This document shows positions 19,763-25,513 of a stretch of 39,791 nt of DNA, piece by piece. The DNA is taken from NCBI GenBank assembly GCA_024225195.1, contig JAAEMV010000592.1:1-39791 (forward strand). Reading direction: 5' to 3'. This DNA is from Planctomycetaceae bacterium (GTDB lineage Bacteria > Planctomycetota > Planctomycetia > Pirellulales > Pirellulaceae). The translations under genes were made by a program, and so were the position numbers. The notes under the pieces are model-generated. The model did not search any database and had not been told where the DNA came from. It was given only the letters and a program-made list of their open reading frames with translations. Every line of letters begins with the position of its first letter. Position 1 is the stretch's first letter.

Positions 19763-22393
19763 TTACTTCGCCGTGTCCGCTGGGAACAGTGGGAGCAAGT
19801 GATCGACGATCGCCTTGATTGGAAGGTTGATTGATTTTTTGTTGTGAGCGGTGGCGACGGCCACCAGATTAAGCTCCGGAAAAATCGACATGTACTGCCC
19901 ACCTGCTCCGATTCCGCTGAAAAAATTTATCTCGGGTTGAGAACTTCCAATGCTGCGGTTGTGGAAGAAGTAGAAATAGCCGGCCCCTTTGTTGGGATCC
20001 ATCACTTGAGCAATGTAGTCTTGGGAAAATAGTTGTTCCCCGTCGTGTGAGCCGCCTTTTAAAACGGCAATACCAAGTTTGACCAGGCTCCGTGAGGTGA
20101 AACTGCTTCCTGCTCCGCATTTGGGAATCCCACAGCTTTGGTTTTCCCAAACGTAACTGAGTTTAAGTTTATCGGCGATTTCATTCTTGATAAATTTTTG
20201 CACGTTGGAATTAGTTTTAATGTCAATCAGCATCATGATCATCGAGGGATCGACACCGGAGTATTTGTAGGTTTTACTCGCCTCAGAAATGGGGGCAGTT
20301 ATTTCGAATAGTTTTTGAAAGTACGCCTGTTTTTTAAAGTCTGCTCCAAGTGTGTTGACCGCTTTTGGGTCTTCAAACCGAAGCCCTGATTTCATCATCA
20401 ATGCGTCGCGGAGTGTAATCGATTCAACGCCTGATTGAATCTTGGTGCGATCAATTTCTGGCATGAAATCAATGATGGGTTGATCGAGGTCAGTCATCTT
20501 GAAAATCCCCAACTGAATTGCTCTGGCAAGCGTGAGTGAGGTTAACGTTTTCGTGACCGACATTGCGTAATGCGGTGCGTCGACGCGTCCGTGACGGTTG
20601 TACATCTCAAATACTAGTTTGCCGTCTTTCCAAATAAGTATGCTGTCCAGGTCTTGGTAGTTGCCGGCTTGATCAGCGGTAACCAGCGCCTTCACGGCTG
20701 ATTTGGTGAAGGGGTGATCCAGTTTGCCGACCTCGAGGCCATCGTTAAGATTGAGTGGCGCGACGCTGACGTAGGCTTTTTCTAAATCGGGAAGTTTTTT
20801 TTGCGCTTGAAATGTCTGTTTTTCGGCAGGGAATTCTTTTGAAAGTCTCGGGATGTCATCCTGCTGTGCCGCCTTATTTACAGTGGTTGGCGGCTGCCTT
20901 TTTTTTTCTCGTGGCGGTTGAGGTTCAGTTGAAGTTTCGCGACTAGGGCAACGGCCATCGGTTATAAATGGCGAGGCTGGTAGTCCCTCAAGATTGATTA
21001 GGCTGATTTTTGGATCGGGATTCGGCTTCCTAAATAAGTAGCGGACGTGAACGGGATTGGAAACCGACGGAGAAGAAACCACAACCGAGTCATTGACAAT
21101 TCTGGCATCGGCGTCGAAGTACTTTCCATCGGCCCCGGAAATTTCAAAATAGTTGAGTTGGTCTCCCCCTTCGGCATTCGCAAGACCACTTCCGATGTGG
21201 TCAAAGGTAAGCGTTGCTTGCTGGTTGCTGATGGAGACATTTTTTAAAAGAGGCCCGGAAAAAACAATGTCCGTTTTGCCATAGTCCTTTGCGAGTGCCC
21301 AGAGAGACAGTCGTTCTCCGGCGTGGCGTTTCTCAACTGGGTGTAAGCTGGGGCCGTGATCATAAAAAACTGCCATTCCAGTGTTCACGCTTTGATCCAG
21401 TGCCCGCCGCATTCCGTCTCGCAACCAGGGCCACTCATTACTGGTTTGGCTCGAACGATTGGTGGTCGGTTTGGCTTGAGTTGGAACTTGCACATAATAG
21501 AACGGAAAATCGCGGACATCCGTTTTTGCAGATTTTGCCCAGATTTCCCGCCATGTTTGGATTAAAAAAGGAAGTAGTTCTTTATATTCCCAGCCAGTAA
21601 ACGCTTTTGCATTTCGCTCGCCTTGGTACCAAACGACACCCCGAAAAGCGAAAGGGATAATTGGGCTAATTTTGTCCTCAAATTGGACACCGGGGTTTCG
21701 GTTTTCCTGTTCGTCATTCCAGTCAGCGGGAATGTTGAGACGCTTTCGAATTACTTCCGATTGCATCTTGGGGAGCCACGCCTGAATCGGTGTTCCGGAG
21801 TTGTAACGAAGGATCAAGCCGATCGGAATATCTAGTTTTTGGTAAAGTTCGTATCCAAAATAGAATCCAACTCGAGAAATGGAACGTTGTGATCTTTCAT
21901 TAATGCCCTCCCAGCCTCGTGGAGTTGAAACTCGAAATCTGGAAAGATCAGAATTGAGGATCTCGGCTGGAATGAATCGGTTCTTGTTTGGATTGAAGGA
22001 ATCCGCCATATTTGATTGCCCGCTGCAGAGCCACACCTCCCCAACCAAGACGTCATTTAAGATCAATTCATTTAAGCCCTTTACCGTCAGTCTGCTTCCT
22101 TTTGAGGACGTGGAGAGCGGTTTTAGCTTGATCATCCACTTGCCGTTTTCGCCGGCGGTTGTCGAGTGTTGTTGTCCCGCAAATTGAACAGTCACTGCTT
22201 CACCTGGATCGGCTGTGCCCCAAATGGGAACTGGCAGATTACGCTGCAAAACCATTCCCTCACTGAACACATCGGGTAGAACAATGTCAGCGGATGCGGT
22301 CGTTGGAATGCAGGCGCACGCTAAAAACAACACAGCGCAGGCAAATTTGCCGATGCTTCTATTGTGAAAGACATTCAGGGGATTTTTATTCAT
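19763..22393 (-). CDS. Sialate O-acetylesterase-like/serine beta-lactamase-like two-domain fusion
   Basis: An 876-residue exported protein with a signal peptide about 1-35. The N-terminal half is a SASA/9-O-acetylesterase-type SGNH esterase: GEVWLCSGQSNM with the presumed nucleophile Ser127, NSGTPIQAW near 200, VVWYQGERNA near 255, and LHP with His351. A Pro/Lys/Gln-rich linker (about 480-530) leads to a beta-lactamase/class C-like serine hydrolase domain (about 540-876) with SVTK (Ser about 612), a YSG where YxN is usual (about 711), and a GAGGQ strand near the C-terminus. Expected role: removal of acyl groups from carbohydrate outside the cytoplasm by two different esterase folds. The start ATG 22393 has GGAACGAAG upstream. 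The PVC gene converges from the left. Confidence 0.9.
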   Translation of the reverse strand: MNKNPLNVFHNRSIGKFACAVLFLACACIPTTASADIVLPDVFSEGMVLQRNLPVPIWGTADPGEAVTVQFAGQQHSTTAGENGKWMIKLKPLSTSSKGSRLTVKGLNELILNDVLVGEVWLCSGQSNMADSFNPNKNRFIPAEILNSDLSRFRVSTPRGWEGINERSQRSISRVGFYFGYELYQKLDIPIGLILRYNSGTPIQAWLPKMQSEVIRKRLNIPADWNDEQENRNPGVQFEDKISPIIPFAFRGVVWYQGERNAKAFTGWEYKELLPFLIQTWREIWAKSAKTDVRDFPFYYVQVPTQAKPTTNRSSQTSNEWPWLRDGMRRALDQSVNTGMAVFYDHGPSLHPVEKRHAGERLSLWALAKDYGKTDIVFSGPLLKNVSISNQQATLTFDHIGSGLANAEGGDQLNYFEISGADGKYFDADARIVNDSVVVSSPSVSNPVHVRYLFRKPNPDPKISLINLEGLPASPFITDGRCPSRETSTEPQPPREKKRQPPTTVNKAAQQDDIPRLSKEFPAEKQTFQAQKKLPDLEKAYVSVAPLNLNDGLEVGKLDHPFTKSAVKALVTADQAGNYQDLDSILIWKDGKLVFEMYNRHGRVDAPHYAMSVTKTLTSLTLARAIQLGIFKMTDLDQPIIDFMPEIDRTKIQSGVESITLRDALMMKSGLRFEDPKAVNTLGADFKKQAYFQKLFEITAPISEASKTYKYSGVDPSMIMMLIDIKTNSNVQKFIKNEIADKLKLSYVWENQSCGIPKCGAGSSFTSRSLVKLGIAVLKGGSHDGEQLFSQDYIAQVMDPNKGAGYFYFFHNRSIGSSQPEINFFSGIGAGGQYMSIFPELNLVAVATAHNKKSINLPIKAIVDHLLPLFPADTAK

Positions 22394-22455: not shown

Positions 22456-22836
22456 CTAGATGTTTTGAGCTGTGAGATAATTGGATAAAAGCTCAAAAGT
22501 TTTTGGTGTGTCAAGCGTTGCTTTCCCGAATCCTGGGTTCGCACCTGCAGCAACCGCAGCGTCCTGAGCTTCCTGGTAATCGGAAATGATCATTGTAGGT
22601 GTGCTCTCGGTCTGCGGATTGGATTTAAGCTCATGAAGGATGGCCATTCCTTCAGACCGGTCCAGGTCCATTAGTCGATTAATCAAGATTAGATCGTATG
22701 GTTGATCGAGAGCGCTCTGAATTGCGTCGTCGAATAAGTCAGCTCGATGGATTTCAATGTTGTAAATTTTTGAGAGGACGAAACTGATCCGTTGGAAGTC
22801 AAAATCGCATTGGCCAACAATTAGTAATTTTTGCAT
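22456..22836 (-). CDS. Single-domain receiver-like protein lacking the phosphoacceptor aspartate
   Basis: A 126-residue protein with the length and alternating pattern of a CheY-type receiver domain: MQKLLIVGQCDFDF, then YDLILINRLMDLD, then TMIISDYQEA and GFGKA. The position after strand 3 that normally holds the phosphorylated Asp is Asn53, while Ser85 and Lys105 fit the conserved Ser/Thr and Lys. The acidic pair after strand 1 is also weak (C10, D11). It is therefore likely a phosphorylation-independent pseudo-receiver used as a protein-interaction module. No output domain and no kinase are nearby. It ends 62 nt before the esterase fusion on the same strand and could be co-transcribed with it. 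Confidence 0.75.
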   Translation of the reverse strand: MQKLLIVGQCDFDFQRISFVLSKIYNIEIHRADLFDDAIQSALDQPYDLILINRLMDLDRSEGMAILHELKSNPQTESTPTMIISDYQEAQDAAVAAGANPGFGKATLDTPKTFELLSNYLTAQNI

Positions 22837-22935: not shown

Positions 22936-23811
22936 TCAAACTGTGCAGATGGTAATACCTTGTTTGAGCGACTCTAGCGGGTTGGAGCGTGAAGGTATAA
23001 ATTCCTGCCCGACAAAGCCAGTGTAGCCGGTATCCCGAATTGCCCGCATGATCGCAGGATAAAAAAGCTCCTGTGATTCGTCGATCTCATTTCGTCCGGG
23101 GACTCCACCAGTGTGGTAATGGCTAATGTAACGATGCGATTTCGTAATGGTGCCAATGACATCGCCTTCCATGACTTGCATGTGATAGATGTCATAGAGC
23201 AGTTTGAAATTATCGCTCTCAATGAGATCGCATAATGCGATTCCCCAGGCACTGCGATCGCACATATAGTCTTCGTGGTCAATCTTGCTGTTCAGCAATT
23301 CCATTGTTAGCGTGACGCCCAGTTTTTCACAAAGCGGTAAGATTCGTTTTAAGCCATCGGCGCAATGTTGAAGGCCTTCTTCGTCACTCATCCCGTCTCG
23401 ATTGCCAGAAAAACAAATTACATTCTTGGCCCCTGCGTGAAAGGCGTCTGTGATTTGTTCACGATAGGCGGCTTCAAGAACGTCGTGGTATTGTGGGCGA
23501 TTCCAAGCGAGAGGGATTCCACCAACCTCTTTCCCGTCAGCGGCCATGGCAGTCGGGAACGTGACCATCGCACATTGCATGTCAAACTGATGAAGGGTGC
23601 CAATTTGTTGCGGCGTCAGTAATTCAACCGATTGAAGTCCAAATTGCTTTCCTTCACGGCAGAGATCTTCGAGCGGCAAGGAGTCATAGCACCATTGGCA
23701 AACCGAGTGGCGGATATAATTTGCATCGCGGGTACTCGCTGGTTCATCAGACTCTAATCTTGCAGCGATAGGTGAGATGAAACATTCCGCTGATTTTAAT
23801 TCGTTATGCAT
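22936..23811 (-). CDS. Hydroxypyruvate isomerase-family TIM barrel (sugar phosphate isomerase/epimerase superfamily)
   Basis: A 291-residue xylose-isomerase-like TIM barrel. The metal-ligand motifs of the Hyi-type subgroup are visible: TMELLNSKID (Glu), LLYDIYHMQVMEGD (Asp and His), HYHTGGVPGRNEID (His, Arg) and FVGQEFIPS (Glu). Known members interconvert hydroxypyruvate and tartronate semialdehyde, or act on related ketoses; substrate cannot be set from sequence alone. The N-terminus carries about 30 extra residues (MHNELKSAECF...) before the first barrel strand. There is no obvious signal peptide, so it is cytoplasmic. It follows the RimK-like gene by 26 nt on the same strand. Confidence 0.88.
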   Translation of the reverse strand: MHNELKSAECFISPIAARLESDEPASTRDANYIRHSVCQWCYDSLPLEDLCREGKQFGLQSVELLTPQQIGTLHQFDMQCAMVTFPTAMAADGKEVGGIPLAWNRPQYHDVLEAAYREQITDAFHAGAKNVICFSGNRDGMSDEEGLQHCADGLKRILPLCEKLGVTLTMELLNSKIDHEDYMCDRSAWGIALCDLIESDNFKLLYDIYHMQVMEGDVIGTITKSHRYISHYHTGGVPGRNEIDESQELFYPAIMRAIRDTGYTGFVGQEFIPSRSNPLESLKQGITICTV

Positions 23812-23837: not shown

Positions 23838-25043
23838 TTAGGGTGAGGGCGATTCCGATTGGGAATCGGGCGGAAGCTTTTTGAGCACCGGGCGGCGATT
23901 TCGTCGTGTTTTCTTTGGGACAAGTTCCCGCATGGATTCAAGCTTTCCAAAACAAAGGAGGCGATCCTCTGGTTCTAGCGTCCGATCCGATCTGGGGTTG
24001 GGAATAACCTTTCCGTCACGATACAGCGTCAGTGCATTAATGTCACGATCCTCGAAGCCCGAGGCATTGATTCCTTGACCAATATACTTAGAACCGTCAG
24101 GAATGTGTATTTCGGTAACTCCATAACCACGGCTGACGGTTAGTCGCTGTCTCAGGTCAATTTCGGGAAAGTCGACTTGCGCGGCGATATAGTCAATGAT
24201 GGCGCCGGCGATGTCTAGCTGCAAGCAATTCTCGATCCCTTCGAGCCCCGGAGATGAATTGATCTCTAGGATTTGAGGCCCGTCGGCTCCTTCGAGCATG
24301 TCGACCCCAGCGACGCGGAGGCCAAGGATCTGGGTCGCACGGACCGCCGTTTCGCAATAGTTTTCGTCGAGGATTACTCGTTCGGTTTTAGCGCCTCGGT
24401 GGACGTTACTTCTGAATTCTTGCCCCTGGGCAACCCGTCGCATGGCTCCGATCACCTGATCGCCTACTACAAATGCACGAATGTCTCTTCCCTTACTTTC
24501 GGAGACGAACTTTTGAATGAGGACGCTTTGCTTCTGGCTTTGCAACAGTTCAATGATACCCTCTGCTGATTGCTGGGTTTCTGCGAGGAGGACTCCAATT
24601 CCCTGTGTGCCTTCGAGGAGTTTAATAATAACGGGAGCTCCGCCAACCCTTTCGATCGCCGGGAGAACATCTTTTTTATCTCGCACGAAAGTTGTTTCGG
24701 GGATGCCAATTTGATGTCGGCTCAGAATTTGGAGGCATCTCAATTTATCTCGAGAATTTGTCACTCCAGCTGCGGTGTTGGTACAGAAAATATCCATCTG
24801 CTCAAACTGACGCAGGACTGCTGTGCCAAAGTAGGTAATCGAGGCACCAATTCTCGGGAGTACTGCATCGTAATCAGAGATTGGTTTTTGACGATAAAAA
24901 AGAGCTGGATTGCCTGCTGCGACGTCGATTGAAAACTTAAGCGTGTTGAGGACCTTGCAGGCATGCCCGCGATTGGTTGCGGCCTCGACTAGCCGGCGGG
25001 TGGAATAGCAATTCGGACTGGTGGAAAGGATACCTAATTTCAT
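23838..25043 (-). CDS. rimK: RimK-type ATP-grasp alpha-L-glutamate ligase with C-terminal RCK_C/TrkA_C-like domain
   Basis: A 401-residue protein, about 100 longer than E. coli RimK. Residues 1-295 are a RimK ATP-grasp ligase: MKLGILSTSPNCYSTRRL, TNSRDKLRCLQIL, APVIIKLLEGTQGIGV, ESKGRDIRAFVVG, SNVHRGAK and the metal site LEINSSPGLEG. RimK adds glutamates to the C-terminus of ribosomal protein S6 in Proteobacteria. Residues about 297-373 match the RCK_C/TrkA_C pattern: YGVTEIHIPDGSKYIGQGI, then YRDGKVIPNPRSDRTLEPED, then LLCFG. That domain binds small ligands in K+ transport regulators. A basic, Ser/Pro-rich tail ends the protein. The ATG 25043 has AAGAG upstream. It lies 2 nt after the RimB-like gene, so translation is probably coupled. 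Confidence 0.9.
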   Translation of the reverse strand: MKLGILSTSPNCYSTRRLVEAATNRGHACKVLNTLKFSIDVAAGNPALFYRQKPISDYDAVLPRIGASITYFGTAVLRQFEQMDIFCTNTAAGVTNSRDKLRCLQILSRHQIGIPETTFVRDKKDVLPAIERVGGAPVIIKLLEGTQGIGVLLAETQQSAEGIIELLQSQKQSVLIQKFVSESKGRDIRAFVVGDQVIGAMRRVAQGQEFRSNVHRGAKTERVILDENYCETAVRATQILGLRVAGVDMLEGADGPQILEINSSPGLEGIENCLQLDIAGAIIDYIAAQVDFPEIDLRQRLTVSRGYGVTEIHIPDGSKYIGQGINASGFEDRDINALTLYRDGKVIPNPRSDRTLEPEDRLLCFGKLESMRELVPKKTRRNRRPVLKKLPPDSQSESPSP

Positions 25044-25045
25044 AG

Positions 25046-25513
25046 TTAGCTCTTGTTAGTTTTCTTTTTTCGCTTGGGCTTACCACCATAAAATGATCGT
25101 CCTGCATCGACGATGAATTTGCCGCGAAATGCCTCTCGACCGAGTAACATTCGAAATCCCATTTCTGAGCGATTCGCAAGCGTCAATTCAACCGGCCAAA
25201 CTTCACCAAGTAAAGACACCACGCTTGAAATCACCGGACGATTCGTTGTTTTCCCCGACGAGCTTCTTACGAGTCGAAACTCTTCGATTTTTGCCTGTGC
25301 TGAAACAAACCGTTCAGGGAAACGATGATAGGGGTGTATTTTGAATCGAGCGTATGGCAGTCCATCCAGTTCGAATTCCTCAACGTCCGTTGCGTGCAGC
25401 GATGAGGAGCGCGCTCCGGTATCAACTTTTGCTTTAATTCGTTTGATTCCGAGGTCTGGCAGGCCGACCCATTCGCGCCAGCCAATAATCGGTAAATTGG
25501 TTTGAGGGTTCAC
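25046..25513 (-). CDS. RimB-like retropepsin-type protease (PF05618, 'ATP-dependent zinc protease')
   Basis: A 155-residue single-domain protein. The hallmark is KAKVDTGARSSSLHA with an aspartic-protease-like DTGA at 31-34, followed by GLPYARFKIHP and the second half NRSEMGFRMLLGREAF. Family knowledge: these proteins sit next to RimK-type ligases, and in Pseudomonas RimB is reported to act on glutamylated S6, opposing or trimming RimK products. Here it is the first gene of a tight pair, its stop lying 2 nt before the rimK start. The GTG start at 25513 gives MNPQTNLPIIGWREWV, as expected for the family. The C-terminus is Lys-rich. Confidence 0.9.
   Translation of the reverse strand: MNPQTNLPIIGWREWVGLPDLGIKRIKAKVDTGARSSSLHATDVEEFELDGLPYARFKIHPYHRFPERFVSAQAKIEEFRLVRSSSGKTTNRPVISSVVSLLGEVWPVELTLANRSEMGFRMLLGREAFRGKFIVDAGRSFYGGKPKRKKKTNKS

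Follow-up and report, generated by a model that had tools for sequence, protein, structure and literature searches.

A RimK-family glutamate ligase with a fused RCK_C domain, encoded beside a RimB-like protease in a marine planctomycete

We found that contig JAAEMV010000592.1 of the marine planctomycete Planctomycetaceae bacterium encodes a RimK-family ligase with an additional C-terminal RCK_C domain (Table 1; the window is the whole stretch of 39,791 nucleotides that was analysed). Elsewhere RCK_C is met chiefly in potassium channels and in transporters; here it is fused to a RimK ligase. We put at about one half the probability that this protein is a glutamate ligase controlled by its RCK_C domain, with a product trimmed by the retropepsin encoded next to it, and that the pair serves ion or osmotic balance. 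An earlier note on this DNA had described a RimK ATP-grasp domain and an RCK_C pattern in a single protein, and a DTGA-type protease gene ending just upstream. Both observations were confirmed, the first by PF08443, PF02080 and the predicted fold and the second by PF05618 (3.6e-31) and the position of the aspartate. Automatic domain databases should list the RimK-RCK_C architecture. A literature search, which left most subscription papers outside its reach, found no description of RimK joined to RCK_C or TrkA, and the accessible part of a paper on RimK that covers planctomycetes (PMC4431377) contains neither RCK nor TrkA.

Table 1. Genes and protein domains at the RimK-RCK_C locus, in window coordinates.
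Feature	Positions	Strand	Remarks
RimK-RCK_C ligase gene	23838..25043	-	401 aa, ATG start, stop included; homologues align from residue 1
RimK pre-ATP-grasp domain (Rimk_N, residues 1-93)	24765..25043	-	PF18030 4.4e-36
RimK ATP-grasp domain (residues 98-286)	24186..24752	-	PF08443 7.1e-58
Conserved linker with FPEID-x-RQRLT (residues 288-306)	24126..24182	-	per-column conservation
RCK_C (TrkA_C) domain (residues 307-376)	23916..24125	-	PF02080 6e-7; 54/54 members; fold matches
Basic tail (residues 377-390)	23874..23915	-	at least 5 K/R in 51/54 members; low pLDDT
RimB-like retropepsin gene	25046..25513	-	155 aa; start codon GTG; DTGA aspartate is D31; end lies 2 nt upstream of ligase gene
Hydroxypyruvate-isomerase-like TIM-barrel gene	22936..23811	-	26 nt downstream of ligase gene
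Receiver-like protein gene	22456..22836	-	after the hydroxypyruvate-isomerase-like gene; also in L035-L039

The RCK_C assignment rests on both sequence and predicted structure. The TrkA_C profile PF02080 covers residues 309-374 and scores 29.7 bits, a slim margin above the cut-off of 27, and it is matched by every one of the 54 aligned members, the window protein included (E <= 0.001). The predicted strands of the domain start at residue 307, so the bounds first proposed, residues 297-373, were right to within about 10 residues. A profile of the segment matched the RCK_C domains of KtrC (3.1e-6), KtrA (3e-5), KhtT (3.9e-5) and MthK (4e-4) in the PDB and, more weakly, that of BusR (0.0099); phmmer with a single tail sequence returned no PDB match. 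When the segment was folded alone, the best of five models had a mean pLDDT of 87 and the other four 73-75. Foldseek placed MthK at the top for this segment (1.3e-5), with KhtT and BusR among the best matches, and VIA-align gave Z scores of 8.8-11.1 among the 50 matches listed, all of them identifiable as RCK proteins from the title or, for PH0236, from the entry. By profile and by fold, this is thus the domain of KtrA/KtrC, KhtT, MthK and BusR. Except in BusR, where it sits on a DNA-binding regulator, its hosts among these are potassium transport proteins, whereas here it sits on an amide-forming enzyme.

We then compared substitution rates between close pairs of members. For the linker and RCK_C domain, dN/dS was 0.000-0.060 in seven of eight pairs, the eighth having no usable dS; the catalytic part gave 0.011-0.039 and the short basic tail was looser, at 0 to 0.25. 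In four of the seven usable pairs dS exceeded 1, so those ratios are rough. The RCK_C extension is under purifying selection and not drifting. Profile, fold, the presence in 54/54 members and dN/dS together rule out a chance match or a frame artefact. The basic tail, with a median of 7 K/R per 14 residues (n = 54 members) and low model confidence, might hold polyglutamate or RNA.

The remainder of the protein is a RimK-type ligase. It scores 244 bits against TIGR00768 (RimK family alpha-L-glutamate ligase; cut-off 143.4) and 195.8 bits against PF08443 (cut-off 21). Residues R98, D99, K100, K141, D248, E260 and N262, which we take to be the ATP-grasp catalytic positions, are invariant across the 54 members. 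RimK was the best structural match of the whole-protein model. The E. coli and Pseudomonas enzymes (PDB 7qyr, 7qys, 5zct, 4iwx) have the same pre-ATP-grasp and ATP-grasp domains in the same fold, at 40-51% identity in structural alignment, but their chains stop near residue 300, where the window protein adds the linker, the RCK_C domain and the basic tail.

The adjoining protease scored 119.5 bits against the RimB equivalog NF052261, below its cut-off of 200, and is therefore called RimB-like. D[TS]GA is present in 105/105 RimB-like ORFs, some of which are the same gene in overlapping loci, and the window genome has a single PF05618 match. A ligase adjoining a DTGA protease, and a catalytic-type aspartate at position 31, are shared with RimB, the rimABK system and RimBK as described in the accessible part of PMC11957791; in RimBK the protease is fused to RimK, whereas here RimK is fused to RCK_C. 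According to the same source, RimB trims polyglutamate, and RimK also makes free polyglutamate, a synthesis that RimB stimulates. No EAL domain was reported in the 26 window proteins scanned. The earlier note had suggested that the RCK_C domain replaces RimA. This idea found no support: in P. aeruginosa, rimK is generally encoded with rimB (PMC10092738, from excerpts), so a ligase-protease pair without an adjoining rimA says little.

To place the fusion among its relatives, we surveyed bacterial genomes for the ligase. At 1e-20, 164 of 392 planctomycete genomes had a match, and by manual count from the table 69 of the 392 carried the extended form, defined as an alignment reaching residue 374 or beyond at >=51% identity; the other planctomycete matches listed end by residue 316. 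The extended form was found in 2/398 Pseudomonadota genomes, one being the seed, and in 3/150 genomes, again including the seed, of a Gemmatimonadetes phylum set (G810, which holds L072); this and several other phylum labels rest on MAGs, in which binning errors are possible. All of these counts scored few candidates per genome (<=4 in most planctomycete and Pseudomonadota rows), with weak matches partly listed. A planctomycete-only trait is ruled out by the gammaproteobacterial strains Pseudohalioglobus sediminis (L095), P. lutimaris (L105) and HTCC2148 (L102). We also considered a plasmid-borne gene and rejected it, as none of the 36 plasmid records with a match reached 80% coverage of the query. 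Two RimK rows that extend past residue ~316 run into unrelated sequence behind a stop: L158 and L159, Pseudomonadota loci with matches to residue 336, were rejected as split RCK_C forms and are plain RimKs.

A quick tree built from the catalytic part alone, with 54 extended and 26 short rows, required one label change between the two forms, and RCK_C was thus most likely gained once and then kept, defining a conserved subfamily; the SH-aLRT value of the split, 92, lies below the starred level. Four rows were left out of the extended set, namely L002 and L005, which duplicate the window, L088, whose frame breaks near residue 274, and L082, whose 5' end is cut; the short set consisted of 20 hand-chosen planctomycete loci and six Pseudomonadota loci. 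The question raised earlier, whether all RimKs of this type carry the extension, has a divided answer: inside one clade they do, but the other planctomycete and Pseudomonadota RimKs listed, the two rows above aside, reach no further than about residue 316. A starred set of 19 rows mixes proteobacterial with planctomycete members, which suggests transfer of RimK-RCK_C between the two groups. At least 29 of the 69 planctomycete genomes with the extended form also list a short RimK-family match (manual count), and this co-occurrence suggests that short and extended RimKs do different jobs.

Next, we examined the neighbouring genes at the best 80 of 341 loci, a set that leans to extended forms because the linker and the RCK_C domain supplied two of the six search peptides. 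A RimB-like ORF was present in 59 loci, in 45 as the immediate upstream neighbour in the same orientation, and an AstE/AspA-type ORF in 52 (50 without ORFs overlapping the ligase). Ion-channel or transport ORFs were also seen (MscS 14, CorA 12, MgtE 6). These loci are related, 33 of them have shortened flanks, and the loci themselves supplied the models used to detect the gene classes, one member of each class being checked with Pfam. The 47 full-flank loci gave RimB 33, AspA 30, MscS 10 and CorA 9, and 20 divergent planctomycete loci gave RimB 9, AspA 13, MscS 3, CorA 2 and MgtE 1. A whole-genome baseline was available for MscS alone: 17 genomes, 83.7 Mb in all, contain 98 such genes, so that chance would put ~1.1 in the 80 loci against the 14 seen. 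MscS was found in 4/19 loci after thinning to <84% identity (0.26 expected) and in 3/20 of the divergent planctomycete loci (0.29 expected). The baseline was counted with PF00924 and the loci with our own models; since the models differ and the loci are related, we give no P-value. Both Pseudohalioglobus loci read mgtE, corA, mscS, rimK-RCK_C, rimB, aspA, with other ORFs interspersed.

These neighbours, RimB, an AspA-type deacylase, MscS, CorA and MgtE, are a hint that polyglutamate is controlled by ions or osmotic state; the related Rlo proteases act in osmotic stress, as stated in the accessible part of PMC12239564. The neighbours do not single out the RCK_C form. At 20 short-form planctomycete loci we counted CorA 4, MscS 1, RimB 14 (12 under a stricter count) and AspA 9 (8 stricter), so that with CorA as frequent there, the ion-flux neighbours appear to go with RimK-RimB-AspA loci generally. 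In the window's own clade, neither AspA nor ion channels lie beside the ligase-protease pair, and a full-length AspA-type match is absent from the window genome, where the best hit scores 45 bits over positions 1-106 of 192.

We propose that the ligase would attach L-glutamate through alpha linkages, either at the C-terminus of a protein or on a free chain of polyglutamate, that the fused RCK_C domain would control this activity, and that the adjacent retropepsin would trim the product. Given that RimK forms tetramers (PMC10092738, from excerpts) and that RCK_C domains pair, the tails would form RCK_C pairs on the tetramer, through which the binding of a ligand could be relayed to the active site. 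The same excerpts report that c-di-GMP stimulates Pseudomonas RimK, at a site that could not be resolved. Here the ligand would be an ion or a common metabolite, not c-di-AMP in general, and the enzyme would help to balance ions or osmotic pressure, polyglutamate being its product or a counter-anion, or else would glutamylate a protein. An allosteric small-ligand switch is plausible. The ligand switch of the earlier note thus stands as far as an RCK_C domain fused to RimK beside a RimB-like protease goes, and finds no support where it invoked c-di-AMP generally or the replacement of RimA. The fuller version, in which RCK_C responds to some ion or metabolite, c-di-AMP excepted, and thereby adjusts the level of polyglutamate, as counter-anion or protein tag, for ion and osmotic homeostasis, is a tentative one on which we would not yet bet. 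If true, an enzyme would join transporters and the regulator BusR among the hosts of RCK_C, polyglutamate would be tied to ion balance, and glutamate polymerisation would become part of ion and osmotic homeostasis. For the question of how RimK-type glutamylation is controlled, the fusion offers a known sensor fold that can be detached from the ligase, purified by itself and used in ligand screening.

The RCK_C domain could instead act as a pairing module only, which makes the RimK tetramer more stable or provides a docking site for RimB or the ribosome without binding a small ligand. Such a role would suit the tetrameric state of RimK and the RCK_C domain of BusR, which the published excerpts describe as dimeric without ligand. 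We recognised no ligand motif in the RimK-RCK_C tails, and several of their most constant residues are, on our own reading, common fold positions. However, RimK already tetramerises when no RCK_C is present, which leaves little for pairing alone to contribute. R354, C364 and K367, conserved in 48, 53 and 49 of the 54 members, respectively, differ in the aligned stretches of KtrA, KtrC and KhtT, which suggests a family-specific site, for which these three residues are the first candidates. Known RCK_C domains are mostly sensors, and we counted this against pairing as the sole function, which we regard as rather unlikely while keeping it in serious contention.

Binding of c-di-AMP, as in KtrA, KhtT and BusR, would tie glutamylation to a potassium messenger; c-di-AMP, named in the earlier note among the ligands of RCK_C domains, was the natural first candidate. 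KtrC, KtrA and KhtT are the closest solved RCK_C domains by sequence, and a diadenylate cyclase (PF02457) was present in 31 of the 36 genomes searched, all planctomycetes among them and the window genome included. However, the cyclase was found in none of the five gammaproteobacterial genomes with RimK-RCK_C, three of which are named strains, despite RCK_C segments 67% (L095) and 69% (L094) identical to that of the window. The published signature of c-di-AMP-binding RCK_C domains, (I/L)(I/L)X2DX1RX5N(I/L)(I/L) (PMC10117811, from excerpts), was absent from all 124 distinct tails of other members, in strict or loosened form, and by eye it does not fit the window's own segment either (I325-N326, E331). 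In its strict form the signature fits KtrA but not KtrC, and on our own reading of the published residues, the accessible part of them, the BusR pocket does not fit it although BusR binds c-di-AMP, so the signature is not decisive. The pocket segment is also one residue shorter than in all five of the best solved relatives among the matches listed, and excerpts of PMC10092738 report that c-di-AMP did not stimulate Pseudomonas RimK, which is without RCK_C. On the cyclase distribution and these comparisons, c-di-AMP is unlikely as the general ligand, though it may still act in planctomycetes; overall we consider its binding here improbable.

Finally, we assessed ribosomal protein S6, the target named in the earlier note. 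The window protein scored 299.9 bits against the S6--L-glutamate ligase equivalog NF007764 (cut-off 331) and three other extended members scored 325.3, 317.1 and 324.8, so that all four tested fell below the cut-off, by a small shortfall in three of them; both short planctomycete RimKs tested passed it, at 432 and 471.7 bits. This spoke against S6 as the general target. The S6 of the window genome has an acidic tail ending in ...AETVAAE and is a possible acceptor. Among 31 host genomes of the extended protein (the window's own, 28 planctomycetes and two gammaproteobacteria), S6 ends in Glu in only 8, the own one included, and in Asp or Glu in 13; both counts are 5/20 in planctomycetes without a RimK match at 1e-20. 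With 8/31, a Glu-ended S6 is no general feature of RimK-RCK_C hosts, and S6 would not be a safe substrate to assign. An ordinary S6 ligase with a neutral extension, although the catalytic part is ~50% identical to Pseudomonas RimK and the S6 tail of this genome would suit such an enzyme, is improbable in view of these scores, the S6 counts and the selection acting on RCK_C.

Several further genes were observed in the window and in related genomes. The hydroxypyruvate-isomerase-like gene lies downstream of the ligase also in the near relatives L035-L039. The receiver-like protein encoded after it scores 23.1 bits, below the Pfam cut-off of 30.2, and by eye has Asn at the expected phospho-acceptor Asp position. 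Further along, the ORF at 19763-22393 (876 aa) joins a SASA (sialic-acid-esterase-type) domain to a beta-lactamase-type serine hydrolase domain. The window genome has a second RimK-RCK_C gene (L001:1210-2421, contig C78), 68% identical to the window's, with a permease/HMA-like ORF on one side and a branched-chain-aminotransferase-like ORF on the other (by eye) and no protease within the short flank examined. A third, short RimK-family gene (L003:1471-2337) stands beside what is presumably a methenyl-tetrahydromethanopterin cyclohydrolase gene, a neighbour that makes it a conceivable C1-pathway enzyme ligating glutamate to a pterin. Another planctomycete contig (G278:C15) carries two RimK-RCK_C genes ~29 kb apart (L116 and L117), and in two planctomycete genomes (L143, L144) a short RimK lies at the end of a much longer open frame of 822 and 845 aa.
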